Shown here: in pieces, positions 1,811 through 62,022 of the stretch
Layout: the number at the start of each line of letters is the position of its first letter
How positions within the stretch are numbered: the stretch's first letter is position 1
Assembly (NCBI RefSeq): GCF_964275005.1
Contig: NC_092697.1
Coordinates: 17,882,638-17,946,637, forward strand
Source: Diadema setosum
Lineage: Eukaryota > Echinodermata > Echinoidea > Diadematoida > Diadematidae
Direction of reading: 5' to 3'
DNA length: 64,000 bases
Notes under the pieces: generated by a model
Seen by the model: the letters and a program-made list of their open reading frames with translations, nothing else
The model's database searches: none
Told to the model about the DNA's origin: nothing
Position numbers and translations under genes: made by a program

Positions 1811-1976
1811 AAGGAACCCTGGACGGGACACGATAGTCACGAAAGTTTATGAGATTGACTTAAAGAACTCTTGTTTAGCAAGTCTGTTATACACGTGCAG
1901 ACTGTAAATATGAGAACATACCATCTATTTTTTAATGCTGAAAAAAAAAATATGCTTGTCTTTGCATTCTTCGCAG

Positions 1977-2108
1977 AATGTCAAGAAGGGTTCTACGGCG
2001 AGAATTGTGCCCAAGTTTGTCATTGCCAGGGTGACGCGTGCGACGCAGTGACGGGGTCGTGTGCGGGCCAGTGTTTGATGAATTGGCTTGAACCAGATTG
2101 CCAAACAG
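1977..2108 (+). CDS. EGF-like domain exon of the Tie-like receptor
   Basis: A 44-codon exon, phase 1 at both ends. Cysteines are spaced as in laminin-type/Tie EGF repeats: C-Q-E-G-F-Y-G-E-N-C, then C-H-C, C-D-A-V-T-G-S-C, C and C. The G-F-Y-G-x-x-C motif is the hallmark. The acceptor is the pyrimidine tract ending TTCGCAG and the donor is CAG|GTGTGT. Confidence 0.85.
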
Positions 2109-2572
2109 GTGTGTTCTTTGTTAATTAAAATTGTTACGTCTTTACTATATTATTCCATTTGATAATTTTGACCATTATTGTCACTTGTAATGTGAATTCT
2201 GTGCGAGCAGATTACAGCAAACTAAGTCCAGATATGGCAATGACATTTTCAGTACCTTATCATGACGTCAGATGTCACAACTATCATGTGGAATGAACCT
2301 CTAGTTTGATAGAGAACAGAACAAGCGGCACCACCGAGACACATCAATCTGCTTTAAGTCTTAACAGGTTAAGTGGATATGTTTTAACACCCAAGAAGTG
2401 CACTGAGGTATAGCCGTTATAACCCCTGTGTGCCACATTATTCTGAGACTGCAACGCAGGCATGCTCGGTGAACACTTGAAAACATAAAATATAAGATTA
2501 CGAATCAGCGGATCTGTTGCCAAAAAGTCACACCTAAAATATAAAAAAAAAAATCAGAAGATCGCATCTGAA

Positions 2573-2648
<76 letters not shown>

Positions 2649-19619: not shown

Positions 19620-19655
19620 TTAAAACGTATCAGGACGCCAAATGCAATTTAGCAT

Positions 19656-40587: not shown

Positions 40588-40836
40588 TTAGTCATTGCAA
40601 TATATGACTTTCCTAACATAATGTGAAGGGTTCTCAATCAAGTCATTATACTGGTATCCAACAGTATCTTGTTCGTCATACACCACTTCAAGATATTCCA
40701 CACTAATTTGGTTGTTGCTGTTGGTAGGACTCGAGCCCTCTGTCTCACCAGAATCGAGGGCAGATCGTGCTGCATCGCATCGGAGAGTATCAAACACCTC
40801 AGGTTCTCTTCTTGCCTTCGGAACGAGCCGACATTT
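40588..40836 (-). CDS. Cytoplasmic tail exon with tyrosine motifs
   Basis: 82 codons plus TAA after acceptor CTACCAG. Motifs: V-E-Y-L-E-V (Y639), a strict ITIM pattern; Y-D-E-Q (Y644), the YxxQ STAT3-docking pattern; Y-C-N (Y670), the pYxN pattern for GRB2-type SH2 domains; further Tyr at 652, 654 and 664. The Ser/Thr/Asn stretch before them looks disordered. Confidence 0.88.
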   Translation of the reverse strand, partial: KCRLVPKARREPEVFDTLRCDAARSALDSGETEGSSPTNSNNQISVEYLEVVYDEQDTVGYQYNDLIENPSHYVRKVIYCND

Positions 40837-43800
40837 CTGGTAGGGACAACAGCAAATAAATACCATTGTAAAATAATGATGACTTTTTGACGGTATAAGT
40901 GCTGGAGTTGAAACAGGGATTCTCTTTATAGAGGGAGCAACCGTCTCTTAGAAATTAAAAAATGGTTACAAACGGCTAGCTCTCTTTCTCCGTTTACACT
41001 GAAAAAAAAAAAAGATTTACCACTCTATTGTACTGTAACTACGGAGCATTAACTTTAGTGTGAATCTGATTAGACTGGGCCCTTTTTGTAGTTGTTTAAA
41101 GGAGGACCCCAGAGAGCTCAAAAATATATACAAAAGAAAAAGTGAATGGTGTCAATTCTCTATCCTCAGTCGGAGCCTATAGTTATTGTAAGATACATGT
41201 ACAGTGACTTTATTCGGTTAATTGCTTATAATGTCACATCATGAGCTGCAGACGCGAAGACAATGAAGTGTGTTTATAGATTCGACTCCTTGTGTATAAG
41301 GGTTTCCTTTTTAAACACGACATGAGCATGTGGATGGGTCACCACTCTTCAAAATCAAAAGGGAAAGGACCATTTACTAATTTCAAAGTTCAATTTCAAA
41401 TTTAATGCTATGAATTCATTTCATCACCATCACCTTCATCTTCATATCTTTTTATCACCCTTTCATCATAATCATAATTTACCATTTTTAGCATCTATGC
41501 GTTAGAATACGAAAACTGAATGCATTATGAATTTGTTCAGATTTTTTTCTCCATTCTGCTAAAATAAATGTGTATACAAATGTACGTATATAGGTTTCCT
41601 GGGCTGTAACGTGTTCAAGTATCCGCTTACAGAGGCAGTCCTTTTTCTGCATAATTTCTTAGGTAATTATTTGCAAATTTGGTAACACAATGTATTTTGG
41701 CGATGGAATCAATGTACACATTTATCTTTTCTTTTTTAAATCATGCAGATTGTAATCTATATGAAATTATTGATGTTTTCTAAGGTATTACTGAAACGAA
41801 TTCTGATGCATGTATTAAATTATGTGGAAGAAAACAAATAAAAAACAAAAATATTTTAACAGCTAATGAGAACATAACATTTCTCTCGGTGTACGTCACA
41901 ATTGATTTACTAATCACTGAATAATTTGTTTTCTGCATGCCGCGAAAAAAGCCTTTGATGCAAAGGAATCTTTATGAAACAGAATGAAAGCTCCTCTATG
42001 TAATTTAAATACATTTAATCGGTTGGGGTTTTTTTTCACAAAGCAGTACAAAACACTAGGAAGCGAATTTACGGTTGCGTGTGAATGCTTTGTAATTTTT
42101 ATTTCGCCGATGCCTCATCAACCAAAGTAAGATGTTGATATCACCTCCGACCAATGATGATATGTTTTTTTTTTCATGTTTATAGTCTGGTGGTTTATAT
42201 TCCCGCTTCATCCTAAACTTACCTGTGGAACACAAGGATCGGGAATGTGCTGAGAATTGTGTTCGAGACACTGTTTGATGGTACATGCGGTAAGGGCTAC
42301 AATGAAGAGCAGGCCTAATGGGATGACAACAGCACAAGCGATGGTCACGACTGGTGTATCAGTTTCTGCATCTGGAATACACAGAGAGTGGTACATGAAA
42401 GAAACAGTTGGGCATACACTGTACTTTCAAATACTGTATACCTTTATTTGGCTTCATACGGTTATTTTGATAATCATTTTATGCTAGAGTCACACACGAG
42501 CGGATTTCGTACCGGGTCCATAAGGAATTAAAATCGTATCGACCCGGTTCGAGCCGTAGAGACGCGCTTTGACCCGCATTGTAACCCGTGTCAATTCCTG
42601 ATGGATTCCAGGCGTTACGATACGGCGATGAAAATTTTTTGATCATGTTCAAAATTTTCTCACGAATTTCAATTCCGTATTGATATCCGCATTGACCCGG
42701 TTGGAACCGCATTGACTCGCATCGACCCGCTGCAACCCGCAACGTAAAACCGTATGGACCCTTGCAGTATGCCGCATTGCCTTCAATGCAACGGATGACG
42801 ACAAGGTTTACATCCGGGTCGAAGCGGGTTGACATGGGTTGATAGGGGTCGAAAAGGAGTCAGTTAAGGATTTAAAGAGCGGATTTTTATACGGTTCGAT
42901 ATGGGTCAATACGGGTCTCTACGGATCGAACCGGGTCGATACGGTTATAATTCCTTGTGGACCCGGTTTGAAATCCGGCCGTGTGTTACTATATATAGCA
43001 TACATTCCCCTTCATTCCGGGACTATTCCGGCTCATTTTCACCCGGATCAAATCCGTTTTGTGACCCGGCCGTGTGTGCATGACTCTAGCATAAAGGTGT
43101 TACTGTTCTGTGATATTACTTCTTTATTCCAAAACAGTTCATAATGAAAATTATTATCGAGTCATGCCCTAACATAAACCTTTGTACATTGCTTGATTGC
43201 AACTGCGAAAAAAAAAATGTTTAGACAATGAGTTTCAAATAGTAATGTCTTCACGTACGTGCTTCGTTCTTCACATGTGTTCTGGGAAACGCTCAAACAT
43301 CAACATAACTCAAAATAATATTAATTTTGTCAACTGGGTCGCATTTGATTCCAGTTGATTCCAGTTTACTGGAGACCAATTGAAATGTAACTGGTTTTGT
43401 ATACTGGTACGGTTGGAAGGTTACTGGTTTCGCAGAGACTCCAACCCCAAGCACCTTCTGATCTGGAGATTCTCCCGCCCGAAACCCCTAGCAAACGGGA
43501 GACTCCAAGTTGATGTGTGCGAAGCGCGAAGTTCCTAAGATTCTAGATGTTCTCTGGTGCTATCTAAGGCTTATTTTTTCAACATACGATAGAAATAAGT
43601 AAGAAATCCTTTCCACCGGGAGACACAGAGCCAGGGCGGGAGAAATCAAATCTCAAACGGGAGAACGGGAGATTGCGCAAAAATGGGCTTTCGGGGGGAG
43701 ATCTCCCGTCGAAACCGGGAGAGTTGGAGTCTCTGGTTTCGTAGCTGGTGGAGTTTGAATTCAACTGGCCTAATGGTCCATTAGTCAACTGGATCAGTTA

Positions 43801-46800
43801 GTCCATTACAATTCCCAGAGTTGCAACTTGACATGGTTGATTTGAACCAGTTGAACTGGTCCAGTTGTATTAAACTGGAATTTCTTTCTGGGAGACTGAA
43901 TCATTCGGACCACTGATGAATACCAACGCTACACGCGGTCATTAGCTGAACCTGAGAATTGAGCGTTAATCTTCGCTATCTGCTCTGCGCGGTGACCGAA
44001 GAGTTTTTGATTGTCATCACTGAGGCCTAAACTGTGTAGAAGGATTTTATTCACAATGTAACGACATGGATATAAATGGTCCTTAGGCAGTGAGGCTACA
44101 TACCCGTCACACCTGTTGGGGCCATAGGCACGATTTGAACTTGTTCTGGGTCGGTAGATCCAGCGGAGTTGAACGCTGATAAATATAACAGGTATGACTC
44201 TTCGGCCAGCAAGTCTGAAAAGAGCGAAATTTTCACTTGTAACATTATTACTTGGCTGTGCATCGGTAGCAAAGTCATTTTGCATTTCCACTTCAATTAA
44301 AGCCTCTGAAATTCATTATGGTTTTTTATCATATTGGAAGCTATGATATTAGATTTTTTCCAAAAAAAAAAAAAAATATTTTGTATACGAATAAAGTAAT
44401 TCATAGTTCCATGCAAATTAGAGCTCATCTTCAATCATAAAGGGGATGGCTAGTAACTGATCAGTGGGAATCAGTGGTAATGCTGGGGATGATTGTTCCA
44501 ATCCTTGTGGGATTTATTCAAGAGCACATTATATATCTATTGTTGTGTGAAAATTATTTGATTCAGAATGGTCTCATATTCAAGTAATGTGCAGTGTAAT
44601 GTTTCCAGGTTAGCACGCCTGTACAGTGACGGGGCATCAAACTGCACATTACTTGAATATGAGACCGCTCTGAATCAAATAATTTTCACACAACAATAGA
44701 TATATAATGTGCTCTTAAATGAATCCCACAAGAATTGGAACAATCATCCCCCAGCATTCCCACTGATTACCACTGATCAGTTACTAGCCATTCCCATTAA
44801 CGTGAACACAGTTATAACATATCGGATAAAAGCATTTGAATATCTTGTAGAAATGATATGATGATTTGCTGCATATGATCATTGTTTTTAATGAATGCCG
44901 ATGGCTAATAATAGCTGGTATTTCGTGAGAGCATTCGTTGAGGTGCATACATGATTGATGTTACCAACTCGTCGAAGTATTTTGCCATTCTGTTTGTAAG
45001 TTTACCTGATATTTTTCGCCTGAACGTCGTATTAAACAGATATTTTGGATTCGATTCTGTTAGGTTGTGAAGTATTGTTCGATCGTATTGCAGACCGTTG
45101 CCGTTGAGTCGGTTAATTGACAGATTGAATCCTTTCACGCCCTGAAATGGCTCAGGACCATCTTCCTCCCATGGTTGAACCTGTCAAGATGAATATTGGA
45201 ACACAGCATTAAAATGTGATAACAATATTGTACACATGTATTTTAAGCTGCTCATGAAGAACGAACAATTTTTATTCCTTGTTGCAGCAATAACTATTCA
45301 TCCGTAAATACAAGGAGCTGATATTCCTCATGAAAATAAATCACGTCGAAATGCTTTGTATCCACTCAATGTCTGACCATGTACCTATTATGGTCTGACG
45401 AAAGGTGAATATCGGTTAATATGCTAAAGAGCGTAGACTATTTTTTTTTTGTCTGTTTCAGATATCATGATTTCCCTTTCGTTTTAAAATCGCGAATGAT
45501 TTTCTTCAAAGAAACAGTGGTATCTACAGGTTTATTTTGTTAAACAGGATCAGAAACAACCATGACACCAACAGATCCGAATAATCCACCTGGTCCTATA
45601 CTTGACGTTCACAAACTGCAATTGCTACGACAACTTCGAAATCTTCGATGGCCATCCTAGCTTGCTCTGTAGAACTTTGTTTAATCGCCAGAAGTAGGTA
45701 TACGTTGCTTATAAATACAACGTACGTCTTTTACATTTTTTCAAAGAATCCATGTTACGTTGCGTATAAATACAATGTACGCCTTATACATTTTTTTTTT
45801 CAAAGAATCCACGTTAAGTTGCTTATAAATACAATGTACGTCTTTTACATTTTTTTTTCAAAGAATCCAATATGAGTAATCCTTTCGGTCATCATTGTGG
45901 ATAATGCCCTTATCTCGAGATCAATGAGTTCATTTCTATAACTACTTATTGCAGGATCCATCATCCATGGGAATTCAAGGCATATTTACAGGATATGTGC
46001 AAGATATATTTATATTGAACGATCACTTTTGTGCCCATTTTTTGTGGGGATCTTCAATAAGAAATATGAATATTCGGGAAATAAGTGTATCAAAGTCAAT
46101 GGAAGTGGAGGGGAAGAGGGGAAGTGTTATTCCCTTTCACATGACGGAGAATTTGGATGTTAGTATTGTAATCAAACGATGTGATGCACACTTTTGGCGC
46201 AATATTTGGAAATGTTTCAATCAAAACATGTAATAAATTTATGAAGGTGGATGATTGGCGGAGCAGGATGCAGTTAGCAGACCTAACTGCAGATACGATC
46301 GCTCTATTAAAAGCAGAAGCGAATACGTCTGAATATGTTGACATAATCTTGGGACGATTATGAAACATTATTTTTAGGTTTTGATAGTTTAATAAAACTA
46401 AACTGAATTTAGTGAAAATTATTCGCATGTTTTAGCAGTCTACGTGCATTCTTGTTACATTTTTTGCACGTCCAAGAACTTTGAGTTGAGGCATTAATGA
46501 GATATATATATTATGCGCCCTCCCCCTCCTGTGATATAACACAAAGCGTTTTAGAGCGTGTTTCTACTGAGAGCACCTCGCATTACCTCGCATCACCGCG
46601 AATTTTGTCTCTCGCATCACTTCGTATTTTACGACCATTTTCTTACCTTCCAGGAAATAGTTACAGATCTTCTGAAACTATTGTCTACGGGATGGTACTC
46701 GCAGCAGCAGTCTTCTGTCGTTGAAGATTCGCATGAATGTATCACCACTTTAACATCTGGCCCTTCAAAAAATAATAAAAAAACAACAACAAAACAAAGC

Positions 46801-49800
46801 AAAACAATTTTCACATGGTCGGTAACTTCACAAATTTGAAACGAAATATAGGCGTAACCTCCCCCCCCCCCAAAAAAAAAAAAAAAACCCAAAAACAAAC
46901 AAACAACAACAACAACAACAAACAAACAAACAAACAAACAAACAAAAAAGCTGTGGTTTGTATGGGGTTTTTTCTTTGTCAGTCCGTTTGTGCAGCGGGA
47001 ATTTCCATAAAACAGGTACATCGATTCATTCACTGAATGCACATAAATGTCAAACTCGTCTGGACAATCATTTCGTCAGTGAATAATGTACAGTTTTAGT
47101 TGATTTCAGTATGCCTTATGTGCTTGTGTCAAATAAAGATCTCTACAATAATCACTGATAATTTGCGATGACACAGAATTTCAAAGAATCACGCTATTCT
47201 ACTAGTGCTAACGAAAGCATGGAAAATTATCCCAGTGACCAGTAAAGGTAAGGTGCATTTTGAGCCAAAAAAAAAAATGTATTGTATTACCATTTACTTT
47301 CTCTCCCTCTCTCTCTCTCCCTCACTACTTACTACACACACTCCATGGATGTTTCATCAAGCATGTCGTCTTGACTATCCGACTTTTGTTGCCTTTTCTG
47401 CTTTTTCTTAACGTATTGCGTGCACATGGATAATTTATCACCTTGTAAAATGAGCAAACCGTGCAAATATTCGAAAGGAAAACTAAAATGGATGGAGATA
47501 CATTGACTTACTGTTTGGAGGAGCAGCAATGCACTGCTCGTCCGACCATGTTCCTAACCTGCTACTCATCACCGTCGGCTTAGTCATGATCCTAACACAG
47601 TACCAAACGTTGCCAACATCGAGATTGTATTGTATTGTTGATTGTATTGTTGTCTTAGAGGTGATATCCCCAAGGAAACTTTCCTGTACAGAATGAAATG
47701 TGTTTTAACAATGGTGGTCATGAAAACTATGTGCACTTGTGTTTTGCAAAGAACTGTGGGGTAGTATACTGCTGTATCTGTAACAAAACAGAAGGCCCTC
47801 AACGTCAAGTAGACAATTTTGAAAAGATATCGATACATTCTGAAGGCGGCTTAAAGGAGCTCTAGAATTATGATGTTGGTAACGTATGGAGTGATTGGGT
47901 CGTGCCCCACGATTCTATGGAATTGTGTGCCCATATACTTGAACTAGAAGGTTGTTGTTTTTTTTTTGTTTTTTTTTTCGTCTGCCAGTATCTCCTGCAC
48001 TTAACTGACTGCAGTGAGGATAACGATTTAAAAAAGCTAGTCTACAAAATGATGTAATTTCACCAGTAACGGGGATACGCTGAAACCATGATTATCTCCC
48101 CAACTTTTTACAGGTCTTCAAAGAAGGATGCTCTCTTCGCTACATGTTATGAACACATCGAAATTTCTAATTCATTGGATAGGCGCATCGTTCTTTGTTG
48201 CATATCAAGACTCCAGACACGTGAAGTGACGTCACCTGACACACACACACACACACACACAAATGACACCTATTTGTGTAAATTTAACATAAGATAATAC
48301 AATCAAAGTTAAACTTCCCAAGAGTTCTGCTACATTTCTATGGTTTCCTTCCTTTGATACCTGCCATGTCAACGTGAACAGCGACATTTTATTATCAACA
48401 TTGGTACAATCAGTTGATCTTCCCTGCTGTGTGTTTTCAAAAAATGCTGATAACCAAAATACAATCAGCTATTCCAAGGGAATGAAAAGAACTAGCAGTC
48501 CTTTAATAATTGTAAAAGTTGCTCTTTTTTATTATTAATTTTCTATCGTATAAAATCTACTCACGATCATGAGCGCTAGGTCGACATTATACCACTACCC
48601 ACTTTGCACTGTCCGTGTAATAATCGCGTGTATCTAACTCTTTCTCTCTTAAGCACATTTTTGTTTACAAACATTCTGAAACGTATTATTTCATTAGGGA
48701 AATTTGATATCTTGACTTTCGAGAAAAAAAAAAAATGCATGGGGCTGTATAGACCAAAGAAAAAAATGATTTGCTCTTCACGTTTGTATATAAGCATCAT
48801 TAGTACAAACCTCCTTCGACGTATTCACATACATGTCCACCAGCCATTGCAGCCATGTGGAGTGGGCAACATTTGTTTCTGGGAGGGAATAATTCCAGGA
48901 AATTTGAAGCTGTTGCTCTGTAGGAGATATTCTTGTGACATCAAGTTCGAACTGTTTCGGAGGATATGGTTCCGCTTTGAATGCAAAGAAATATGAAAGA
49001 CATTCACGTATTGAATAATGATAATAATAATAATAATACAAATAATAATAGCACTGATATTTCACAATAAATTGTATTCATAAACCATTAATCACATTCA
49101 TTATGTAAATAAATAAATAAAGGTTTGTCCTAACAAAAATATTCATAGTTTATCATAATTACAGTGGAACATGATTGTTGATGATAATTTCCATATTGCA
49201 TTAATTATTGATAGAACGCATTGTCATGTGTCATACAATATTCTCTGTTAGAAGTCTGGTCTACAGATCAGTAAAAAAAAATTGTGATTTGAGAAAAAAA
49301 AAATGTAGAAGGTCATTTACTTAAAATAAAGACACTTGAGATAAGACGTATTGATTGTATACGTTTTGTATCAACAGAGGCCTACCTTTTTTGTGGTTGT
49401 TGTTCAATTTCATTCCTGATTTATCGAGTCTAGGGAACTTATGCATTCTGATGGCTTTCTTAAAGATGTTTCATATTGATTTTAATTTTTCTTCAACCTC
49501 ACAAATTCTAAACAGAAAGATAATTGTTCCCAGCACAACTACTTCCTTTCCAACAATGAAAAATCAACTTGACTGTCAGAAAGATGCACAAAGATATGAG
49601 CAAATCTTACCTACGAACAACTCAATTCAACCAAAAGAACCTCGTATCATTTTCTATTCGTGTATGATTTAGAGTATTATCTCTTATATAATGTATGCCC
49701 TTTCAAGAATGTCATTCCCTAAAGGTCCTGTTTGCTTTTGGGAACAGTGATTTAAAGAAAAAAGTCAAGATATGGCATTTAATGCATATGTGTAGGTCTG

Positions 49801-52800
49801 TTGTAACACGAAAACATCCTATCATATAAAATTTTCGCGATAGAGCCTAAAATATAAGGAGATATCTGCTTTTTCCTCAATAGACCGTAAATGTAGACGG
49901 TTTAGTCTAAAATAATTTTTATTGATAACTCTTGTTCACATTTTGTATATTTAACAACACTTAACAGCGATATCAAAAATTTGGCAGTGGCTGTTTCTAT
50001 CCCTCACTCACATTTGAACTATTTTAAAGCACTAATGCCGGGTTTTTGTCTCGTCTGCATCCCATTATGCCTTTAAAAGGTAAAAGCATATGAAATATCT
50101 TTGTCTTTCCTGCTGTATTATAATCAATAATATTTTTAACATATTTCTCTTCACTTTTCATATTGACCAACCACTGGAATTTTCAACTCATGGGTTTTTA
50201 TTGGAATGAAAGACTGCAAGCTCAACACTGTTGGATGAATGAACAGAAAAAATAAACTAAACTAGATAAAAATAATAGCACAGGTCGTCTCGACTTCTTG
50301 GAGAATTTCAAGAAATCTATTTAGCTCCAAACTTTCGTCTTCACCAACCATTAATATGTCACATTGCTGGGAAGACTGAATTAGGCCTACTTGATCTTCT
50401 TTTCACGACATAGTGATGAGGAGCAGAATGATTAAATGCGAAAAAAAAAAAAAAAAAGATGTGAGGTGATGTATAAATGTTGGTGATTTTCAGGTATTTC
50501 AAATACATTCGGTCGATTCAAAACTTTGAGGGGCTACTTACATGATTGACACAAACAAATAGGTTCAAATCTCCCATTGTTCTAAGGAACATTCCAGAGT
50601 TTCAAAAGTATCAAACAACGACGGAACTAAGCAGCTGCTAAACGACAACTAAAACCATTATAAAGATAACAATAAAAACAGAGGAAAAACTCCAATTGAA
50701 ACAACAAATGTATGTTTTGAAATGAAAAAAAAAATGTATGCAATGTTTTGATACGTATACTATATATGTGTTACAAATGTGTATTTATATTAAAAAGTAG
50801 ATGGCAATATAAAACAGAATTAAAATTCAACTCACAATCCCTTGAAATCCAAAAGGTGAGATTTCCAGATGTTGGATCGGACATATGCCCTACAGCATTC
50901 CTTGTCAGGATTTTAATATAATACACTGTACCTCCCATGCGGTGCTCCGTCAAGTTGAAACGATACTCCCCACTGCTTGACTCGCATGACTGAAGTTCAC
51001 GATAGTTGCTGATGGAGAAAGAGAAAAAGTAATATACCTGAGTAAGTTTAGAACGTACATGAAGACAAAACAATAAGATAACTTTTCATTCGTTTAAAAT
51101 TGTTGTAACCAGTCACGTCCTTCACAGATATAAGAGCATACCTCAGTGCTAGATGTTGTCATGTCATGTCAGATTGATATTTGATGGGTGACACCTGTAC
51201 AAATGCTCATTCTATGCTTGGTGTTTACCCTTCATGTGGAGATGTTTATTGTTCTAGCGTACTTTGCCTTGGTTAGAAAGGTGTTCATGGCTATTATGTT
51301 CCCGACAGTTGGTGTGATTCAGTTCTCGACCACCACAGCTACACTCTTACCATTCAATGTAAAGATATGATAAGATATGATATCATTTTTAAATACTGCT
51401 TCTATGGCCGAGGCACACCATGGACTTACAACATTGTACATTAATGGATGGACACACATACACTAGACATACACTAGACATACGAACAGATGATTCGCGA
51501 TTTTTGTACGTCCTGTTTTTGTTTGTTGTGCCATTTTTATTTTTTGTATGTATGCATTTAGGTATGTATGTACTTATTGATTAAATGATTGATTGATTGA
51601 TCAATTGATTTATGATTTCATTCTTGTTCGTTTATTTATTCATTTATTTATTCATTTTAACTGATGGAGTGGTTTGCGTGGTAAACGATAGTGCTCCATG
51701 TTCGGACGTCTTCGCGTAACGTCTTGCTACGATTTGATTGATTTACACAGATCAATAAAGAACAAATGCAAGCAGCAGGTAAGTTATCATTGGTGAACAC
51801 TATGTTTCATGAGACTGATCTTGTACAATTTTTATTACATTGGGGCCTATTTCTGCGTAAAAATGAATTGATATTTTTTTTTTATAATACAAAAATATGT
51901 CAGCATACAAAACTATGCAGTGCAATGTGGTGACTAAATCACCTCACCGGGATAAAGTTAATTGCTGTGATTTTTTCACAAAAGGCTATAGTCGCCACTA
52001 GATATTAAACATTGTGAGGAAGGTCTACATCTTCAGCATTCAGTTACCTGGTTACAGTGACTTGTTATACACAATCTGCACGAAAACCTTGGCAATGATG
52101 CATAAAGAGTGGCGATGATGATGCTTTTCATTGTGCACAATATTTGATTTTCTTCACAGTTTGATAATCATACATACATTCCAGGTATTTGGAGCAACAA
52201 AAAAAAAAAAAAAAAAAAACGGTTGCAGCTCGTTATTCCGAAAGTTCGTTATTCCGAAGGCTCTTCACTCCGAAGATTCGTTATTCCGAAGGTTCCGAAT
52301 TTCATTTTCAGATGAACAAATCCACGGAATAACGAACCCTCGGAATAACGCCACAAATGTTCGGATTAACGAACCCTTTTTCATGTTCGGATTAAGGGTG
52401 GGATTTCACAGAGCACGCGAACGATTTGCGAAGGACGCGAATGACAAAATCCAACATTCGGAAAAGTTTTTCTCCGAATGTTTTCCGACAATGAAGCCGA
52501 AAACTATTCTTGCGCAATTTGTGCGAAGTTTCCACGACGTATGTGCGAATGTCGTGTGTATCATTGCTGAAGTACAGCATGTTACGTACACGAAGAATAC
52601 GCGACGGAAATGCGAACAACGAAAAATTTTCAATAATCATGGGAGAAAATGTACCCAAGGAGAGGTGGAAGCTGTCTTGAGTTGAAATTTTTTCTTTCCT
52701 CTATTTCTCCTTTCTTTTTCTCTCATTTCTCTATCGTGTGCTTGCCTACATTTTTTTCCTGGGACATATCTCCACTAGTAAAGCCTTTGATCTTTTTTTT

Positions 52801-54801
52801 TGCAGTTCCTCCAACACATAATCTCTATAGTTCAAATGAAAAAAAAAAAAAAAAAAGAAGTGTATTCTACGATTTTTTTTTTTGTATATCAAACATTTAT
52901 TTCTCCTTGCTTGTCTTTAATTTCTTTTGTTTGTATTAGTTGTTAATAATTGTTTGATGTTTAGATGTATGTTACGATTTTCATTTGTAGAAAACGTATA
53001 AGTCATACATCCCCCAAACGTGCGCTAAACGTTCGCAAGAATATCTCAAAAGGTACGCGAACAGTTTCTTGTATGTGTGTGAAATTTGTGCAAAGTTGAC
53101 TCATTTGCACTGAAAGGGTTAGATATAATGTCCCAGAATATTGTCAAGGCTGCTGAAATTCAGTTGAATTCATGCCATTTCTAACATTACAGCAATGCTT
53201 TTACACCCCTAAAAACACCCGGGTCAGAACTGACCCGGAAAAGGGTCCGTTGGGGTCACGCTCCGTTCCAGGTCAAAAATGACTTGGGATTTGATCATGA
53301 AGACCCGGAATGGGGTCACCCTGACCCAATTCATGACTCTGAATGGGGTCATATCTGACCCCATTCGTTGTCATTTCTGACCCGGAACGGAGTGCGGCCC
53401 CAACAGACACTTTTCCGGGTCAGACTGACCCGGATGTTTTTAGAGTGTAAAATTCATATTAACTGCTATGTTCTCATTGAGTGAATTAGCCGGGGTCAAC
53501 CCACGAGCTAGACACGCGGTAGTCATAAGGCCTATGAATGATAGACAAAGATGGCATTGAAAAATATCCAAGAGTCATATTTCCACCAGTCATATAACCC
53601 ATGAGCAAGACACTAACCAGCTTTACAAGTTCAAAAGCTAGAAAAGAAATGGAACAGGTTCACGATCTCGAAATAGGCAAATAAGGCCGACGAGCTCGAC
53701 AAAAGCTAAAACATAAGGTTCACGAGCTCAACACTATAAGCCCCGTGATGTAATGTCGAGCTAGTGGGAGTTTGGTTTTTGTATAGTGTCTATGTCAATG
53801 ATGAATAATATTAATAGTTACTAATATCAATTAGCGAATAATCTAATTCATTCATTGCATTATCAAAGCACACGAATTTGTTACAAGAACTATCGCACAA
53901 GACAGTTGTACCTTTGGAAATAGCCACATCTGGCATTTGTCGGTAGGTTTGTCTCAGGCACGGTCCATGTACAGATGAGAACTGTATAGTCATTACAGTG
54001 GCATTCCAATGAAGATCCTCGAGGTGGAACTGCAAAGATGAGGATTATTTATGTATGTCTTATAGTTGCATCATCTGTCACTGTATCCTAAGTTCTCTTC
54101 TATGATACACCCTATCACCATACATTCACCGCGAGAACACTAGCAACACCCAGTTTAGCCTACGCTTAAATGAGACACGTTGACACACGTTGATAATCAA
54201 CCTTAACAGTCATAGTGGGATTAATGCAAAATTTTGACAAACTGAAATCGTACTTTTAGAGGTAACATGATGTCCGTAGAGAATAATTAACATCGATTTC
54301 ACTAATTTCTGCGATGATCATTGTCCTCTCCTGTAGTCATTAGCTCTTCGATAATTTCATGAGAATCTACAGTATATTATGTATGTTCATGAAAACGGCA
54401 TGTCAAATATTTTCATCTATTTCAATTCTGTTCCTCTTAATTCATTGAATTCATGAATTTAATTTCATTTTTCTACAATAACATAATATGCACTTTACTA
54501 ATTCCTTTAGTGGCAGAAATCAAATGTAAAAAAAAACAACAATATGGATTGAACAGTGGTTAACAACAATAATTGAACACTTACAGAAACGATACAATAT
54601 AATGGGACTGAAGAAATAAAAATGCATGTATGTGTACACATTGTGCGATTGGACAGGGGTAAACAACAATAATTGAAAACTTACAGTAACGACACAACGT
54701 AATGAGACTGAAGCAATTAAATATGAAATATGAGTATACATTGTGCGAAAAAAGGATGGACCCACTAAAACAGACACACACACGCATTCACACATACACA
54801 C

Positions 54802-54832
<31 letters not shown>

Positions 54833-57091
54833 ATGATTGTAAAGTGTCAGCCCCACTTGGAAAAAAGAACGCCATTGAAACTATTGATCAAACCGCATCA
54901 AAACAACAAGAAGAAGTTTGGAACAAAAGACAAATTGGACAACAAAAATGTTGACATCCCACAAAGAGACGAAGAAAACAAATAAGATAGACAAAGAGAA
55001 CAAACAAACAAACATGAACAAATAATGGGACAGCAACAAGACAATTTACAGGGAAATACAACAAAATGACTCGACGATACGCCCCTACAGGAAACAAGAC
55101 TAACACATCAAGAGAGACTATGAGGTTCGACATGAATAAACAAGAGAAAACAAACAAACAAACAATCGTCATATTCTTCCTTACAGTATATCTAAAGCAT
55201 TGTTGTCATTTCGCAACGTTGCTATTTCGTTAAGACATGAACATTTCGTCGACGAAATGATTATTTCATGGGCTAAATCATCATTTTGTTACGAAATCCA
55301 CAGTCATTTCGTAAGGATACGAACATTTCGATTTCGTGGACGAAATGACTAATTTCGTAACGAAAGGGACTATGCGACACTTGGCGCCCCATAGAGCTAT
55401 GCCTTTCGCAGTCCTGCTCTGATAAGTTTGTTTCGTATATTTGTTTGTTTCACATGTACTTACTGCCTATACGCACACTGTACGACCTAATTGTCACGTT
55501 CGTTTCTGAATCACATGAGTAGCTTCCGGCATCTTTCCACGTGGTGTTTGGTATACGCAACACTGAGACGTTTCCCGAGTTATCGACTCCGTCATAAACC
55601 TCTGTGCCGTTGTGTCTCCAGATCACGCGGGATCCAGCTGAGAGATCCGAAGACTCATTCACACACTTCAGCTGCAACTCTTGGTTTCTCTCACAGGCAA
55701 CATACAGTTCTGTGAGATATGGATGCAATATTGACGTATGACAAAAGATCATACACATACTCTTAATCAATCAAGAGAACCAAAAAATGTAGTAAAATAA
55801 TATTTTGCTACTATACTTTGCTTTTTTTATGTTGGATATCATACATACATATATCAGTTCTATACCCCCAGAATACGCTTGATTTCGTACAGACATTATT
55901 TCATATCAGACATTTCAACATCAAAGTCATTTTTTTTTTTGTGCTAATGCCTATTAGAATTATGCATCACTACAACTAGAATACTAGAATTCGTAATGCA
56001 CAATATTCAACAAGACTCAATGTCCAAAACTCACAGCATCATAAGGCTCTTACGGCAAATTACAAACTTTGATTATGTCTAACCTCTCTTGCTGTAATTA
56101 ATTTAGTTACATAAAACCAATCCCGTCAAAAACTACCTAGGCTTTGTGATAAAACGCTCTCTCCGCAGATCACACAATATTTTATAATTGGTTGATCCAA
56201 ATTACTTTCCCAATAACTCCTAGTGACGGCGTGATCTGAAATGTTCGGTCACAAATGCCTATATGAACTGCTACTAACGCCGTAAGAACGATTGTTAGAG
56301 CATTTTGTAAGATCTTCTTAAGAAGGTCGTTCTTACGAACGTCTTATGAAGATTATGAGTCATTCGTATGAACGCCGTACGAATATCCGTTCTTACGGCT
56401 TTCTCACGAATGCTGTAAGAGATTTCTGTGAACAATTTACGGCGTTCTTACGATCATCTCAAGAATTTGAGGCTTCCAGAATCATCTCGCGACCCCACGA
56501 AATCTTCAAAAATCCTGCGGAGCTCTTTCATTGTTCTTACGTCGTTCGCACGACCGCCTTACGAAACGGGGGTTTCGTACGATATGTGGAAAGAAATCTT
56601 GGACAAGACCACCAACCAGGCTGCGAACGACGAACGGTTTAAGAAAAGTTTACGAACGCTGTTTTCGTACGACCGTCTTATGAAGATCTTACGAAATGGT
56701 TTCAAAATCGTTTTTACGGCGTTCGTAACGATTCGTAAAGGCATTTGTGCACGAGCCTTCAGGCTTTCGAGCCAAAACTTACCTTTGGGTGGATATAGAG
56801 TGCACACTTTTTGAGACCAGGTCTCCTTTCCCATGCAGGTCAATTTCACACAATGTTGCACATCTGGAAGATTTGTTGACATCAAAATGAAGGGCTGTGT
56901 TAAAGACCAGGCCATCTCTGTCTGTCAGATAAGAAGGAGTGACAGGGAGAAAGACGAGTGAAATCTGTTTTTTGGATGTTAACTAGTTGTGCATAAGACA
57001 TGGCAATGCTCGTCATACAACAATAAACAAGTGGTCTTGGTCCAATAAAGAAGTCTGCTGGAAAACACTTAAAAGGACAAATCACCGAATG

Positions 57092-57184
<93 letters not shown>

Positions 57185-60100
57185 TGAATGACTGCAACAT
57201 TATTAGAAGAACACGTCAGCGAGGAAAATCGGTTATGAATCTTTATAACAGTTTAGGTGCCGCCATCCCTGGATGGGAGGAATACAACAGTTTGTGACGT
57301 CACTGCAGGGCAACGACATAAAGAAAATGATAAGGAGAATTGAACATGTTTTCATACTTAGTATTTCCTGCAAAATCAAAGCACTCTTGACCGACCTCTT
57401 TCTAAAAGTGGAGAAATGATGTTGCCCTTAAAGGGGATGGCTAGTAACTGATCAGTGGGAATCAGTGGGAATGCTGGGGGATGATTGTTCCAATCATTGT
57501 GAGATTCATTTTAGAGTACATTATATCATATCTATTGTTGTGGTAAAAATATTTGCTTCAGAATGGTCTCATATTCAAGTAATGTGCAGTTTACTGTTTC
57601 CAGGCTAGCATGCCTGTACAGTGACGGGGCATTAAACTGCACATTACTTGAATATGAGACCGTTCTGAAGCAAACAATTTTCACACAACAGATATATGAT
57701 GTACTCTTAAAGGGAACGTAAACCCAAAGACCAATGTGGATTGAGTGAAAGCAGCAACATTAGTAGGACACATCAGTGAAAGTTTGAGGATAATCGGACA
57801 ATCGATGCAAAAGTTATGAATTCTTAAAATTTTGGTGTTGGAACCGCTGGATGAGGAGACTACTAGAGGTTGTGACGTATGAGTGGACAACAATACAAAG
57901 AAAATATAAAGAAAATTTAACAAAAATCCACTTTTCTAGCATTATGAAAGAGCACTTGACTAACCGCTTTCAGAAAGCAGGGGGAATAATTGCTACCCTT
58001 AACATATGTCAGTATCAAGTTGATGGAATTTGTAATTTTCATGAAAAATGAATATTTGTGGAATTTTCTTTATATTTTCTTTATATTGTTGTCCACTCGT
58101 ACGTCATAACTTTTAGTAGTCTCTTCATCCAGCGGTTCCAACACCAAAACTTTAAAAATTCATAACTTTTGCATCGATTGTCCGATTTTCCTCAAACTTT
58201 CACTGACATGTTCTACTAATGTTGTTGCTTTCACTCAATCCACATTGTTCTTTGGGTTTGCGTTCCCTTTAAATGAATCCACAAAGATTGGAACAATCAT
58301 CCCCCAGCATTCCCACTGATTCCCACTGATCAGTTACTAGCCATCGCCTTTAACATGCACCAGTAAAACGTCGACCGAGAATGTATTTTTCAGTCAAAAA
58401 AAAAAAAAATGTGGAATTCTCTTCGAATTTTCCTAATATCGTTGCACTGCAGTGATGTCACAATCTCTTGGAGTCTTTTTATTCGGTGGTGGCGGCACTG
58501 AAAATAATTTTTTTTAAAAAGGAAACAATATTTTTGAACCTATTATTCGATTTTCCTCAAACTTCAATGATGTATGGATGTGGTCTACGAATATTGTTGT
58601 ATTCATTTAATCTTCATAAGGTGACATTTTTCTTTACGAGTCAGAGAGAGGGAAAGGTAAGACTAATCACAAGAAGTGGAGAGAAAACGGACAATTACAT
58701 AGCATTTGGAAATAAACAAGGGTAACAGTACCACCCATAATCCAAATCTCGGATCGGCTCAATTTCTAAACTTCAGGAATTCGATGTAGCATATTGGTTG
58801 GTAAATTGAGTTTACAAATCATTAGTGAAATCAGCGAGACTATTTGAAGCGACACATTATAGTTTATCTCAACATCAAATTGTTGTATTCATAATTCGCA
58901 GCGTTGATAGTATTCGTCATTGTGATTGTAGCTGCCTTAGTTTACTTCAAATGTGTGTGTGGTATCAAGTCAAGTTCATTATGTGATAATGTACGCACCG
59001 TCGAATTTAATGTTTCTCCTGTTGTATGATTCACGTCATAGTGTGGAGTTTCGCAATTGTGATGGTTCCAAGACACATTGAGCAGCAATTCACCATGACA
59101 ATTTGCTGCAGTTTCAATCTTCAAATTCTGAAATTCTCTTCTTATATCTGAAAAAAAAAGAAACATAGATATACATAACATTTGCAAGAATTATTTTGTG
59201 TTTGTGTTTGATCAAATATAAAATGACAAACAAATGACACCAAATGATAAAGGATTTGAGATCGGGATTTTAAATGACGGTTTTGGAAATTACCTGCATA
59301 CCCTTTTCCCTCCCCCTCCTATTCCCCCTCATCGCCTACCCCCTTCAAATAAATAGGTGTTTTTGTGTAGTTTTTGTTTGTTTTTGTTTGTTTTTGTTTT
59401 TCCACATTGCATCGCTTTAAATACAAATTTGTCACAGAGCAGTGATAATAATGCATTACCAGTTTTACAAAGTAAAACATCTCTAAAGAAGCACTTCCAA
59501 CACAACACAAACAAGGGTTGCAACTTACAGATGGATAATGCTTATAATACTTTCAAAACTACTTGACTGCTCGTCAAAACTTTGACCACTTCAAACAGGG
59601 TTACATGCACTTGAGCTATATCTGTGACCGTGCATCACAAAACGAACAAAAAGTCGCATACACTGATTTTGTGTGAGGACTGAAAATATGTGAAATGGGT
59701 CAACCCAGCCGAACTTGACTTTGTCATATTTTCTGAAAGAGCAATTCTTCTTCTCCATTGTGCTATAATTTGGGATCATAAAACGGGTAGGAAAGTGTAT
59801 TTTTGAGCAGTTTATCCCGAACATTTTTTTTTTTGGTAGAATAGTGTGATTAGGTTTGTTTTTAGAATCCCCTTTTCATTTCTTAAAAACCTTGTACGCA
59901 CTCTTCACTTTCCACATCCCACCCTACATCCAACTGGACCCCATGGAAGACCAGCTTAGTGTAGCTGAATATATATGGGTTATCCAGCCATCTTCACAGA
60001 TGGAAATGAACAACAAAATAACTTTTGAAAGGATAATGCTACCCCTTTGAAAGTTGGTATTTGGTATGGACAAAATGTGTTAATAAGGCATGCCTAATTT

Positions 60101-62022
60101 CAGCTTAATCTGATAATCTCTTCATTGTTGATACTCCGGTGGTTTATATCCGGTTTATTGTCCCATCGCACAGCCAGCACGGCGTGGTAAAGATTTAGCG
60201 CTTGAATAGACACTGTACTTCAGAGCCTCTTTTCTCAGTTCGCAATTTTCCTGAGTGTGTGTTTTCTTTCCAGTATTCAGATAGATTAGAAGAGTCCATT
60301 TGATGTGAGTTATACATCATTTTAAAGCTTAAAGTCTGCTCTTTCAGAATATGCTCTTAACTAAAATTTCATCTCTGGCGACTTTCTGTTCGTTGTTTTT
60401 GTGATGAAGGGTCACATTTGATGCAGATATCGACTTTGAAATCGACCAAGTCATCCTTAACATGTAAAAATAATGCTAAAATCTACTAAATTTGATGCCG
60501 CTGCAGAAATCGAAATTGCACCAAAAACAACTACAGCTGCTTCGAAGAGCTTCGCTTTTTTCTTCTTTTTTTTTTTGTTGATAAAAATACACCAGTTATG
60601 AAAGTCGACATCTATACATCCGAAACATCTTCAAAGTGGGAAAGTGGCCAAAAGCGGTCAAAAAGTTTTGAGGAGTAGTCGATTATGTTTGAAAAGTATT
60701 TGAAACAGAGTGTATGTAAAGATGTAAGATATTGTAAACTCTGTAATGCTAAACCATCATCCTATAATATTGATATTTACACCCACATCCGAAGTATCTT
60801 ATGTGGAAAGTAGCCAAAAGTGGTCAAAATTTTTGAGAAGTCCAGTAATTTTTTTTTTAATTTGAAACATTTTAATCTATAGAATGAAACCCTGCTTATG
60901 TATCGCAAGAGGCTGTGTAAGATGTAAACTCTGTAATGTTTAACCACCATTTTATATTGATATCTAAACCCACACTCGAAGTGTCTTAAGTGGAAAGTGG
61001 CTAAAAGCGGTCAAAAGTTTTGTGGAGTAGCGGAGTAGTTCAGTATCTGAAACGGTTTATATCTATAAGATGAAACCCTGCTTATGTATCGCAAGCAGTT
61101 GTGTAAGATATTTCATTCATTTTATTTTATTTCCGACAAATATATGCATTACAACATAACATTTACAACAAAAAATAAAGTACAATGTTACTATTGCATA
61201 TTCTAGCGAGCTTAATGAAAATCATTTTTTTTTCACAATAAGGCAAAACATAGATAATTCCTAAAAAATTGATAAAAAATCGGTGGATACTGATAACATT
61301 ACCAAGAAAAAAAAAGTATAGCGGAAATTCCTGTAATCGCGTCGCGTTCCGGGTTAATTACTGCTGCCTAATGTTTTGTAACGGAATTGATGTTGTACCA
61401 TAGCTGTATCCATCTTGCAAGAGTGAAACCCCATTATCTACATGCAATTCATTACTGATTCTACCCACATTCTACCTACTCACAATTGCACGGTTGCTGA
61501 GTGCAGAGGGCGTTCCAGGAATAACAGTCGGGTACATCGTAGATGTGTATCATTACTCTTAAAGGGGAACACCGACTTTTATTTGGTCCCGAGTTTTGTA
61601 ATTTTTTTTTTTTCTAAATGAATTTTATCACCCTGTTTTTAATGGATTTTTTTTTTCCTGCAGCACTCCTACCAGTGCTGCATGTCTAGAGTGAGGACAT
61701 GCACCAGCGTTCCCTCTAAATGCGAAAGTCACTTCCACAAGGGTCATTCAAAGCCATAAACTAGAAACGCTGACAGTTTTTTTGCCTAATGAAATAAACA
61801 TTTCTAAAGTTCAACCATTAATTTCATCTTCCTTATTTTCGTGAATGGATTTTCTAACGGGTTTCCTTTCTCTGTTATTGTCTTTGCATGTGCGAGAGAC
61901 ATTGAAGCAAGGATATAAATCATTACTTTACATTACATACGGGATGATTTACCTGACGAGCTGTTACCTCCACAGCAGACTGTGTTGAGTAGGAGGAAAA
62001 AACAGGAAAACACAGCACGCAT
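40588..62022 (-). CDS. Cytokine-receptor-like type I membrane protein (gp130/LIFR-like layout)
   Basis: Thirteen exons close in phase from ATG to TAA: 61953-62022, 58999-59147, 56783-56921, 55464-55709, 53912-54029, 50836-51008, 48811-48974, 47512-47683, 46647-46762, 45006-45180, 44113-44214, 42223-42371, 40588-40836; 673 residues. Order: signal peptide (1-20), FN3-like domain ending T-W-S-Q-K-V-C (24-120), Ig (120-201), D1 with C-x-W (202-298), D2 ending T-W-S-D-E-Q-C (299-410), FN3 (411-541), membrane helix (549-573), 100-residue tail with box1-like I-P-D-P, ITIM-like and YxxQ motifs. This resembles gp130/LIFR but with one membrane-proximal FN3 instead of three. Expected to bind a secreted ligand and signal through JAK/STAT. 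The exon structure is very secure; family placement rests on motifs read by eye. Alternative: a generic Ig/FN3 adhesion receptor. Confidence 0.85.
40837..42222 (-). other. Intron before the tail exon
   Basis: AT-rich, CATC/ATC-rich near 41420-41480; no element recognised. Confidence 0.5.
42223..42371 (-). CDS. Transmembrane exon with box1-like motif
   Basis: Acceptor TTCCAG, phase 1; donor CAG|GTAAGT, phase 0. About 25 hydrophobic residues (549-573, V-V-T-I-A-C-A-V-V-I-P-L-G-L-L) then K-Q-C. The sequence H-I-P-D-P-C-V-P (583-590) lies about 11 residues inside the membrane. gp130-type box1 has V-P-D-P at a similar distance and binds JAK kinases; the parallel is inference. Confidence 0.85.
42482..43091. 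mobile_element. MITE with TGCTAGAGTCA termini and GGGTCGATACGG iterations
   Basis: Left TGCTAGAGTCACACAC, right GTGTGCATGACTCTAGCA, flanked by TA on both sides. The interior repeats 'cccggttcgagccg' and 'gggtcgatacgg'-type units in opposite orientations on the two halves. About 610 bases, non-coding. TA duplication suits Tc1/mariner-like or related insertion. Confidence 0.8.
43434..43734. mobile_element. hAT-like MITE with 8-base flanking duplication
   Basis: Left AGAGACTCCAAC, right GTTGGAGTCTCT. The flanks GGTTTCGC (43426-43433) and GGTTTCGT (43735-43742) differ at one base. An 8-base target duplication is the hAT signature. Interior has 'cgggagac' and 'gtctcccg'-type inverted pieces. It sits within a CCAGTT-rich stretch (43340-43880) that may be an older element. 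Confidence 0.8.
44113..46762 (-). CDS. Membrane-proximal FN3 domain (exons 9 to 11)
   Basis: Exons 46647-46762, 45006-45180 and 44113-44214. Begins P-D-V-K-V-V-I with an unusual C-C-C cluster, then V-T-I-S-W-K at a phase-0 intron. Ends Y-L-L-Y-L-S-A-F-N-S-A-G, typical FN3 F-G strands. The middle (about 60 residues, three sequons) is longer than usual. Confidence 0.75.
44441..44796. mobile_element. MITE family A, copy 2
   Basis: AGGGGATGGCTAGTAAC at the left and GTTACTAGCCATTCCC at the right, with flanks ATAA and TTAA (a decayed TTAA pair). It supplies the uninterrupted order CTCTTAAATGAATCCCAC used to define the B insertion in copy 3. In an intron of the cytokine-receptor-like gene. Confidence 0.85.
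45181..46646 (-). other. Intron with a 65-base tandem repeat
   Basis: Three imperfect copies of a ~65-base unit ('gttgcttataaatacaa', 'tttcaaagaatcca') at 45705-45868. Nothing else identified. Confidence 0.75.
46861..46947 (+). repeat. C-run, A-run, AAC and AAAC microsatellites
   Basis: C(10), A(15), then AAC and AAAC triplet/tetramer runs, just upstream of an exon acceptor on the other strand. Confidence 0.85.
47512..48974 (-). CDS. Cytokine-receptor D2 domain with WSxxxC motif (exons 7 and 8)
   Basis: Exons 48811-48974 and 47512-47683, phase 0 between. The start P-Y-P-P-K-Q-F-E-L matches the P-x-P-P-x-x-L hinge of D2 domains. The core is L-Q-I-S-W-N-Y-S-L-P, and the second half has V-G-N-V-W-Y-C-V-R-I (C382) and G-T-W-S-D-E-Q-C (W399-C404). 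W-S-D-E-Q stands where W-S-x-W-S is expected. The Y-C...C pair is the class II feature. Confidence 0.78.
48975..50835 (-). other. Intron, AT-rich, nothing recognised
   Basis: Short ATA/ATAA runs near 49020-49050 and an A-run at 50441-50457; no element shared with the rest of the window was noticed. Confidence 0.5.
50836..54029 (-). CDS. Cytokine-receptor D1 domain (exons 5 and 6)
   Basis: Exons 53912-54029 and 50836-51008, joined in phase 2. L-E-C-H-C is followed by V-L-I-C-T-W-T-V-P (C-x-W at C221-W223), then A-R-C-G-Y-F (C236) and Q-S-C (C249). This is the four-cysteine plus C-x-W pattern of class I cytokine receptor D1. The domain ends Y-Y-I-K-I-L-T-R-N-A-V-G, the usual F-G strand region. 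An overlapping frame in exon 5 that includes an ATG was rejected because it breaks phase. Confidence 0.78.
52222..52390. mobile_element. Palindromic element of TTCGTTATTCCGAAGG motifs, copy 2
   Basis: The left arm repeats CGTTATTCCGAA-type units four times; the right arm has GGAATAACGAACCCTCGG. Can fold into one long hairpin. Related to 14046-14440. Confidence 0.7.
53211..53450. mobile_element. 240-base near-perfect palindromic MITE
   Basis: Left TTACACCCCTAAAAACACCC, right GGATGTTTTTAGAGTGTAA. Inside, GGGTCA and TGACCC words repeat (GACCCGG, GGGTCAG) in both orientations. The termini TTACACTCTAAAAA are a recurrent MITE end in marine animals (from memory, family not checked). Confidence 0.85.
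54030..55463 (-). other. Intron between Ig and D1 exons
   Basis: Contains a diverged ~135-base duplication (around 54526-54620 and 54635-54750), a CA microsatellite (54776-54832) and an inverted ATTTCGT-rich block (55195-55385). Confidence 0.65.
55195..55385. repeat. Inverted block of CATTTCGT/ACGAAATG motifs
   Basis: At least eight 'atttcgt' or complementary words in both orientations, able to form a hairpin; likely a small MITE whose ends were not fixed. Confidence 0.6.
55464..55709 (-). CDS. Immunoglobulin domain exon of the cytokine-receptor-like gene
   Basis: A single phase 1-1 exon, 82 codons. L-K-C (C135), V-I-W-R-H-N-G with core W150, and W-K-D-A-G-S-Y-S-C (C185) give a textbook Ig fold. 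Four or more sequons suggest heavy glycosylation. In LIFR an Ig domain likewise sits between receptor-homology domains. Confidence 0.9.
56250..56750. mobile_element. Palindromic MITE close to an exon of the cytokine-receptor-like gene
   Basis: Left CACAAATGCC...AACGCCGTAAGAACGATT, right CGTTTTTACGGCGTTCGTAACG...GGCATTTGTG. 'cgttcttacg' words repeat through both arms. The right end is only about 32 bases from the donor of exon 3 (56783). Confidence 0.75.
56783..59147 (-). CDS. N-terminal FN3-like domain (exons 2 and 3)
   Basis: Exons 58999-59147 and 56783-56921 meet in phase 0 after N-S-T. The first half has L-L-L-N-V-S-W, the FN3 B-strand with core Trp. The second has L-P-D-V-Q-H-C-V-K-L-T-C and T-W-S-Q-K-V-C (107-113). 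The C...W-S-x-x-x-C ending is like the last strands of class II cytokine receptor domains. Several N-glycosylation sequons are present (N-V-S, N-H-T, N-S-T). Confidence 0.75.
57090..57181 (+). repeat. AT and GT microsatellites
   Basis: About 27 AT units then 16 GT units. Confidence 0.9.
57432..58349. mobile_element. MITE family A, copy 3, TTAA target duplication
   Basis: AGGGGATGGCTAGTAAC to GTTACTAGCCATCGCCT, flanked by TTAA at 57428-57431 and 58350-58353. Interrupted by a B copy. Confidence 0.85.
57711..58268. mobile_element. MITE family B, intact copy nested in A
   Basis: AGGGAACGTAAACCCAAAG to CTTTGGGTTTGCGTTCCCT, 558 bases with long inverted arms, flanked by TTAA at 57707-57710 and 58269-58272. 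The empty site in A copy 2 has a single TTAA, confirming target duplication. TTAA and an AGGG terminus link A and B to a piggyBac-like source. Confidence 0.88.
59623..60416. mobile_element. Dispersed repeat R, full-length copy 3
   Basis: Terminal inverted repeats TGTGACCGTGCATCACAAAACG and, at the right, TTTTTGTGATGAAGGGTCACA; the next bases (AAAAAGTCGC / GCGACTTTCTG) are inverted as well. About 790 bases, non-coding. Class unknown; no clear target duplication. Confidence 0.8.
60605..61110 (+). repeat. Three-copy ~180-base tandem repeat
   Basis: Each unit has a 'cacatccgaagtatctt' type start, 'gtggaaagtggccaaaagcg', 'gatgaaaccctgcttatgta' (units 2 and 3) and 'tgtaagatgtaaactctgta'. Starts lie near 60605, 60778 and 60965. 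Confidence 0.8.
61953..62022 (-). CDS. Signal-peptide exon of the cytokine-receptor-like gene
   Basis: M-R-A-V-F-S-C-F-F-L-L-L-N-T-V-C-C-G-G, then N-S-S-S at a phase-1 donor TCAG|GTAAAT. The ATG follows CCACCATC. Classic n/h/c regions of a secretory leader. Confidence 0.85.

Follow-up and report, generated by a model that had tools for sequence, protein, structure and literature searches.

Where IL-6-type receptors originated is disputed, and a multi-exon gene on the minus strand of the window (the whole stretch of 64,000 nucleotides analyzed here) raises the question of whether a gp130/LIFR-like cytokine receptor exists in a non-chordate deuterostome. According to passages of PMC3296744, no cytokine receptor signalling system is apparent in the purple sea urchin, while passages of PMC13203501 list IL6R there, tracing this receptor to Mollusca, naming Saccoglossus and Strongylocentrotus, and reporting the remaining IL-6-family receptors from vertebrates only. 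The first-pass annotation of the locus regarded such receptors as rarely documented outside chordates and arthropods, which is overstated, since those passages of PMC13203501 report IL6R-like genes from molluscs as well as from a sea urchin and an acorn worm. We propose that the window gene very probably encodes a functional single-pass class I-type cytokine receptor related to gp130, and that it is a member of an echinoderm gene family. With an intact gene bearing a box1-like motif, a paralogue, further relatives, and JAK and STAT exons at hand, the question of origin is now testable.

The host was placed by its mitochondrial contig (contig 102; 15,708 bp), on which COX1 is open when translated with table 9 (AAA as Asn, AGA/AGG as Ser, and TGA as Trp). 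The Asn positions in COX1 are conserved, and table 9 is common to echinoderms and flatworms. The gene order on the contig is cox1, tRNA-Arg, nad4L, cox2, and tRNA-Lys with the anticodon CTT (nad4L and cox2 were named from their frames), an order that we take to fit echinoderms. No long frame was found upstream of cox1 on this contig, which would presumably fit the gene order of a sea urchin or sea cucumber. Thus, the genetic code and the gene order together identify the host as an echinoderm, and the assignment to a non-chordate deuterostome stands.

The receptor gene comprises 13 exons, all of them where they had been annotated on the minus strand, from the start codon at 62022 to the stop codon at 40588. 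All 12 introns are bounded by GT-AG, the phases close, and the spliced model of 2022 bases including the stop codon encodes 673 residues; the gene is confirmed to be intact and correctly read. The protein is ordered as a signal peptide, an FN3-like domain, an Ig domain, the D1-D2 cytokine-receptor module, an FN3 domain, a membrane helix, and a tail. Exon 1 (61953..62022) carries the start codon and the signal peptide, residues 1-24, judged by eye from the hydrophobic N-terminus. The N-terminal FN3-like domain, a half module of the D2 type, is divided between exon 2 (58999..59147; gene model and alignment) and exon 3 (56783..56921), the latter reading HCV...TWSQKVC..PP and assigned by hhalign against the D2 exon profile. 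Exon 4 (55464..55709) encodes the Ig domain, residues 120-202 (Ig_3, E 2.3e-5, below the Pfam cut-off). Exon 5 (53912..54029) supplies the first half of D1 with C-x9-C-x-W, exon 6 (50836..51008) its second half, and exon 7 (48811..48974) the hinge EPYPP and the first half of D2, these three being supported by the gene model and by single-sequence and profile searches of PDB. The second half of D2, with WSDEQC at the place of WSXWS, lies in exon 8 (47512..47683; gene model and PDB profile search). The membrane-proximal FN3 domain begins in exon 9 (46647..46762; candidate search, gene model, and Pfam), continues through exon 10 (45006..45180; gene model and Pfam), and ends in exon 11 (44113..44214; fn3, E 0.0087 over residues 442-532, below the cut-off). 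Exon 12 (42223..42371; gene model, hydropathy, and motif count) encodes the transmembrane helix and the box1-like HIPDP, and exon 13 (40588..40836; gene model and motif count) the remaining tail with EVFDTLRC, YLEV, YDEQ, and the stop codon. Exon 9 was the sole exon that needed a search; the candidate ranked highest on splice score and frame brings the phase back into register, and the alternatives, which scored lower, were discarded.

A codon-use model trained on 689 codons from two neighbouring genes ranked the true frame best in 10 of the 13 exons, the misses being exons 1, 3, and 11. Just three of the 13 exons scored, in absolute terms, above the 95% point set by 3895 intron stretches free of stops, and the gene would therefore not be proved by codon use on its own.

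The HMM search that the first-pass annotation had proposed as a check matched models of class I and class II receptors and of FN3, but weakly. With the single sequence, no cytokine-receptor model of Pfam reached its cut-off, and the Ig_3 and fn3 matches given above also fell below the curated cut-offs. D1 alone matched LIFR_D4 (0.027), IL6Ra-bind (0.032), and LIFR_N (0.19), all below the cut-off, with an unrelated Nodulin model as the top weak match (0.0076); a weak match to Interfer-bind (0.043) was also found. In PDB, the single sequence was best matched by IL-11 receptor alpha (1.9e-4, spanning the Ig-D1 border), Ig proteins such as contactin 4 (0.031) coming next, and the module alone matched the prolactin receptor (6.3e-4) over D1, the hinge, and the start of D2. 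The reversed D1-D2 sequence had no match in PDB at E 10, and the resemblance of the real one to class I receptors is therefore beyond chance.

For searches in the reverse direction, we used 1641 sequences comprising the spliced protein and the six-frame stretches of the window of at least 25 aa. The matched fragments of the prolactin receptor and IL-11R-alpha found only the spliced protein, plus its exon-5 frame in the case of IL-11R-alpha, and gp130 D1-D3 found no match among the same 1641 sequences. Alignments were compared with 500 shuffles each. The Ig domain plus the module aligned with gp130 domains 1-3 at a z-score of 5.6, which none of the shuffles reached, and D1 aligned with gp130 D2 at 4.0, reached by one shuffle. 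The z-scores for the prolactin receptor and IL-11RA are inflated, as the fragments had been pre-picked as matches. D2 by itself was no more similar to gp130 D3 than its shuffled versions were (z about 0), and an ordinary FN3 domain of a neighbour gene scored 5.5 against the same gp130 domain with no shuffle reaching it; the assignment of D2 thus rests on the profile described below.

The profile was built from the aligned D1-D2 modules of the window gene and four relatives in the same genome (197 positions). Searched against PDB, it found gp130 first, with an E of 1e-13 for the whole chain and 2.8e-10 for the D1-D2 stretch alone (positions 6-188), then the prolactin receptor (1.3e-10), CRLF1 (1.9e-8), LIFR (2.6e-7), CNTFR (3.1e-7), and OSMR (8e-6), followed by IL-11RA and G-CSFR. 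At E <=0.001 there were 36 distinct sequences, representing 8 receptors and without exception of class I, and the 60 sequences at E <=10 consisted of 52 of class I, five of class II (IL-10RB, at 0.038 or weaker), and three unrelated ones (E at least 0.26). These matches show the predicted D1-D2 module to be homologous to those of class I receptors, in agreement with the first-pass annotation. We do not claim orthology with OSMR/LIFR, because gp130 and the prolactin receptor outscored LIFR and OSMR. In Pfam, LIFR_D4 matched three of the five members (best 2.6e-5), the window's own sequence being absent among the matches listed.

When the Ig domain was included in the profile, titin and contactins led the PDB matches through that domain, and CNTFR, IL-6R, and CRLF1 aligned over both Ig and the module (the best 60 of 2040 matches in both cases). 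A search led by nothing but ordinary adhesion FN3 proteins had been named beforehand as an outcome that would speak against a receptor; the D1-D2 profile gave no such outcome, whereas the Ig-containing profile did rank titin and contactins first. An ordinary Ig/FN3 adhesion protein that resembles cytokine receptors by chance would account for this ranking and for the weak, generic Ig and FN3 matches in Pfam, but it is very improbable in the face of the uniformly class I matches of the D1-D2 profile at E <=0.001 and of the three receptors that align over Ig plus module.

The module exons of the window gene have the phases 1-2-1-0-1, a pattern that may also be that of human EPOR. The published value that was found is for class II genes: PMC8863823, in which such a gene was compared with other IFN receptors, gives phases of 1-2-1-0-1-0. 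A receptor of class II (interferon or IL-10 type) could draw on these common phases as well as on the matches to Interfer-bind and IL-10RB. We give this reading almost no credence, since gp130 stood about eleven orders ahead of IL-10RB in the profile search, and the protein's C-x-W in D1, its Ig domain ahead of the module, and its box1-like motif all point away from class II.

The module departs from the canonical class I motifs in two places. The D1 signature is given in passages of PMC1963337 as C-x(9-10)-C-x-W followed by W-x(26-32)-C-x(10-15)-C. C211, C221, and W223 of the window gene conform to its first part; in place of its second cysteine pair, C249 follows after 25 residues and no fourth cysteine lies 10-15 residues further on, and D1 has C213 and C236 in addition. 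Thus, the annotated C-x-W holds but the full four-cysteine spacing does not, as the canonical fourth cysteine is absent. The P-x-P-P hinge reported ahead of D2 is present in exon 7, and at the other end of D2, WSDEQC stands where WSXWS was looked for. These features recur in the family: all of the five aligned members carry C..C-x-W in D1 with the third cysteine after LPTxxxC or FPTxxxC, WS[DEK]xxC at the WSXWS place, and a D2 end of the form G-x-W-S-x-x-x-C..PP. With the second cysteine pair and WSXWS of the signature published in PMC1963337 replaced, we file the protein as a variant, namely a class I homologue with imperfect motifs.

A separate profile of exon 3, the later of the two exons that encode the N-terminal FN3-like domain, was made from five members and matched that built for the second D2 exon (hhalign probability 96.7, E 3.9e-10). 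Inside the window gene, this domain aligned with D2 at a z-score of 5.8 (reached by 1 of 500 shuffles), and the introns of the two domains are of equal phase and lie within about two residues of each other. The profile match, the alignment, and the intron place together give the order half module, Ig, full module, FN3, and helix; both the Ig domain and the extra FN3-like domain annotated before D1-D2 are in place, the latter as a half module of the D2 type. A search of the minus strand from exon 1 to exon 2 uncovered no further C-x(7-13)-C-x-W within a single open frame; it covers unsplit motifs, an intron-split one would escape it, and the N-terminal module is accordingly taken as half. The N-terminal FN3 alone had no PDB match at E 10. 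Its Pfam match to FAM167 was dismissed as chance.

One membrane-proximal FN3 domain, of 131 residues, was found, so that the combination of Ig, module, and three such domains by which the gp130 subfamily is recognized is incomplete; module domain(s) ahead of Ig, the mark of the OSMR/LIFR type, are present. OSMR has a half module in front of its Ig domain, and LIFR a full N-terminal module. The window gene shares with both the succession of module domain(s), Ig, and full module, and both were among the PDB matches of the profile, with LIFR_D4 in Pfam; it differs from both in having one membrane-proximal FN3 instead of three, and from LIFR in that its N-terminal module is half. With gp130 (IL6ST) it has in common Ig, D1-D2 with the P-x-P-P hinge, FN3, the helix, a box1-like [IV]P[DE]P, and YxxQ, while it differs in the extra half module before Ig, in WSDEQ for WSDWS, and in its tail, which is shorter and has a single YxxQ where gp130 has four. 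According to passages of PMC10746620, gp130 consists of Ig, the module, and three membrane-proximal FN3 domains, against one in the window gene. Altogether, the gp130/LIFR-type layout that had been annotated is right in kind but exactly that of neither, given the single membrane-proximal FN3 and the half N-terminal module.

Outside vertebrates, Drosophila Domeless is a JAK-STAT receptor with a cytokine module, which a single exon encodes according to passages of PMC1963337, in contrast to four exons in the window gene; a Ciona gp130-like gene is described there with a multi-exon module as in GP130. The IL6R-like receptors of molluscs, Strongylocentrotus, Saccoglossus, and Ciona, which were compared by description only, are of the same kind and occur in animals without IL-6; the passages of PMC13203501 and PMC1963337 that concern them describe neither a half-module layout nor an echinoderm gene family. 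The literature on echinoderm receptors (titles and the starts of abstracts, outside subscription journals and gene databases) contained no multi-gene family or half-module layout, which is not proof of absence. What the present analysis adds is the receptor gene family and the half module that precedes Ig.

A protein search of the assembly (912,680,840 bases in 102 contigs) detected an inverted paralogue, which lies on the opposite strand some 50 kb outside the window. For this paralogue, exons 2-13 were put together at C13:17997352-18019622, while exon 1 has no settled counterpart. The procedure demanded the phases of the window gene and yielded a frame for every one of these exons, so the equal phases are not independent evidence. 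Exons 2-12 pooled gave a dN of 0.30, a dS of 0.95, and a dN/dS of 0.31, with dS near saturation (exons 5, 6, and 12 are saturated individually), and the substitutions between the two genes look constrained, as judged from these ratios. The Ig exon is identical at 72 of 81 residues (89% at the protein level; 35-75% in the other exons) with a synonymous difference of 0.15 against 0.36-0.92 elsewhere, and this low value looks like recent gene conversion of the Ig exon.

Weaker relatives were found on C13 at 13.2 and 13.29 Mb and on C15 at 33.92-33.93 Mb. With the window's phases required, three of them (c13a, c13b, and c15) yielded exon 3 and the Ig, D1, and D2 exons, and a fourth (c15b) yielded the Ig and first D1 exons; for c13a and c13b, no first exon of the half module was found. 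When one of the relatives served as the query, clusters were added on C13 at 12.84-12.86, 13.06-13.12, and 13.39 Mb. In total, nine places on the two contigs match the first D1 exon, namely the window gene, the paralogue, those near 12.857, 13.058, 13.203, 13.292, and 13.387 Mb on C13, and two on C15, one of them weak (E 0.049). Of these nine places, five were checked for the layout; stops occur in several of the matched stretches, and some of the loci may be incomplete. Among the matches listed, each of the clusters at C13:12.84-13.40 Mb and C15:33.91-33.93 Mb has one orientation.

A multi-copy family in which matched stretches of several relatives contain stops is a setting in which the window gene might be a decaying pseudogene. 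Every frame in the window gene is open, however, its splice sites are in place, and the dN/dS of 0.31, albeit with dS near saturation, is against decay, leaving only a slim chance for this reading.

The tail of the receptor bears on signalling. Hydropathy indicated a single membrane helix at residues 549-569. In gp130, box1 ([IV]P[DE]P) is located 13 residues after the helix. The window gene has IPDP 12 residues past the helix segment and the paralogue IPEP at 11, and fewer than 1% of shuffled juxtamembrane segments carry [IV]P[DE]P. These two are the members in which a box1-like motif was seen; in c13b, neither a membrane helix nor box1 was found within about 9 kb downstream. The tails of the window gene and the paralogue have the EVFDTLRC stretch in common and contain one YxxQ each (YDEQ and YSCQ, respectively). 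Elsewhere in the genome, a JAK exon matched Jak1_Phl at E 0.039, below the cut-off, and its open frame matched JAK2 at 8.7e-14; a STAT exon exceeded the cut-off for STAT_int (E 1.9e-8) with one TAA within the matched stretch. In gp130, JAK sits at box1 and STAT at YxxQ. Considering the box1-like motif, YxxQ, and the JAK and STAT exons, JAK-STAT signalling by the window receptor is likely, a prediction that follows from motifs and exon matches.

Measured from the cysteine that follows the helix, the tail is 102 residues long in the window gene and 206 in the inverted paralogue. A tail of about half the length, with no proven box2, would suit a decoy or co-receptor that binds the ligand and lowers or tunes the signalling of longer-tailed paralogues; PMC2914635 deals with a short non-signalling receptor. 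We consider such a modulating role unlikely, given that the tail has the box1-like HIPDP, YDEQ, and the EVFDTLRC also present in the paralogue. For the signalling receptor that we prefer, and whose gene we infer to be expressed, a helical-bundle cytokine would bind the predicted D1-D2 elbow and Ig on a pair of receptor chains, either two copies of one receptor or two paralogues, and the membrane-proximal FN3 would draw the membrane helices together. JAK putatively held at HIPDP could then become activated, and the tail tyrosines would be phosphorylated, YDEQ serving for STAT and YLEV for a partner of the SHP2 or SOCS type. STAT, if recruited in this way, would be switched on.

At a broader level, the nine first-D1-exon places on two contigs may represent a diversified echinoderm family of class I receptors, in which the succession of half module, Ig, and module, until now ascribed to vertebrate OSMR/LIFR, either predates vertebrates or arose twice. 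The family would then form a multi-receptor helical-cytokine system with a WS-x-x-x-C signature of its own, contrary to the published statement on the purple sea urchin. We put this forward tentatively, with a little less than even confidence. An intact gene belonging to a family of similar genes suggests that, outside vertebrates, immune signalling of the IL-6 type may be more diverse than is commonly assumed.

Other features were observed in the window. At 19653-27371 on the minus strand there are fragments of a GH16 laminarinase-like gene that include the active-site-like motif GEIDLVE; joined by eye, they matched a PDB laminarinase at E 5.3e-23. On the plus strand, 1859-13930 contains the exons of a receptor-like gene with EGF-like domains seen by eye, a weak Ig match, and fn3 at E 9e-10, and a late frame of this gene bears the tyrosine motifs EDEDYTTL and PYATV. 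Similar frames of the form GR.SNSGPPIGS.ES.PLCHS are found in opposite orientation at 1510-1806 (minus) and 33043-33294 (plus), the latter overlapping a tRNA-Gly call at 33180-33252, and are perhaps a tRNA-derived SINE; BLAST of this tRNA-like repeat against plasmids gave no match. Within intron 11 of the receptor gene, at 42479-43144, frames on opposite strands encode the similar peptides PGRYDFNSLWTR and PGRYGYNSLWTR, and this segment is perhaps a fold-back or inverted repeat.
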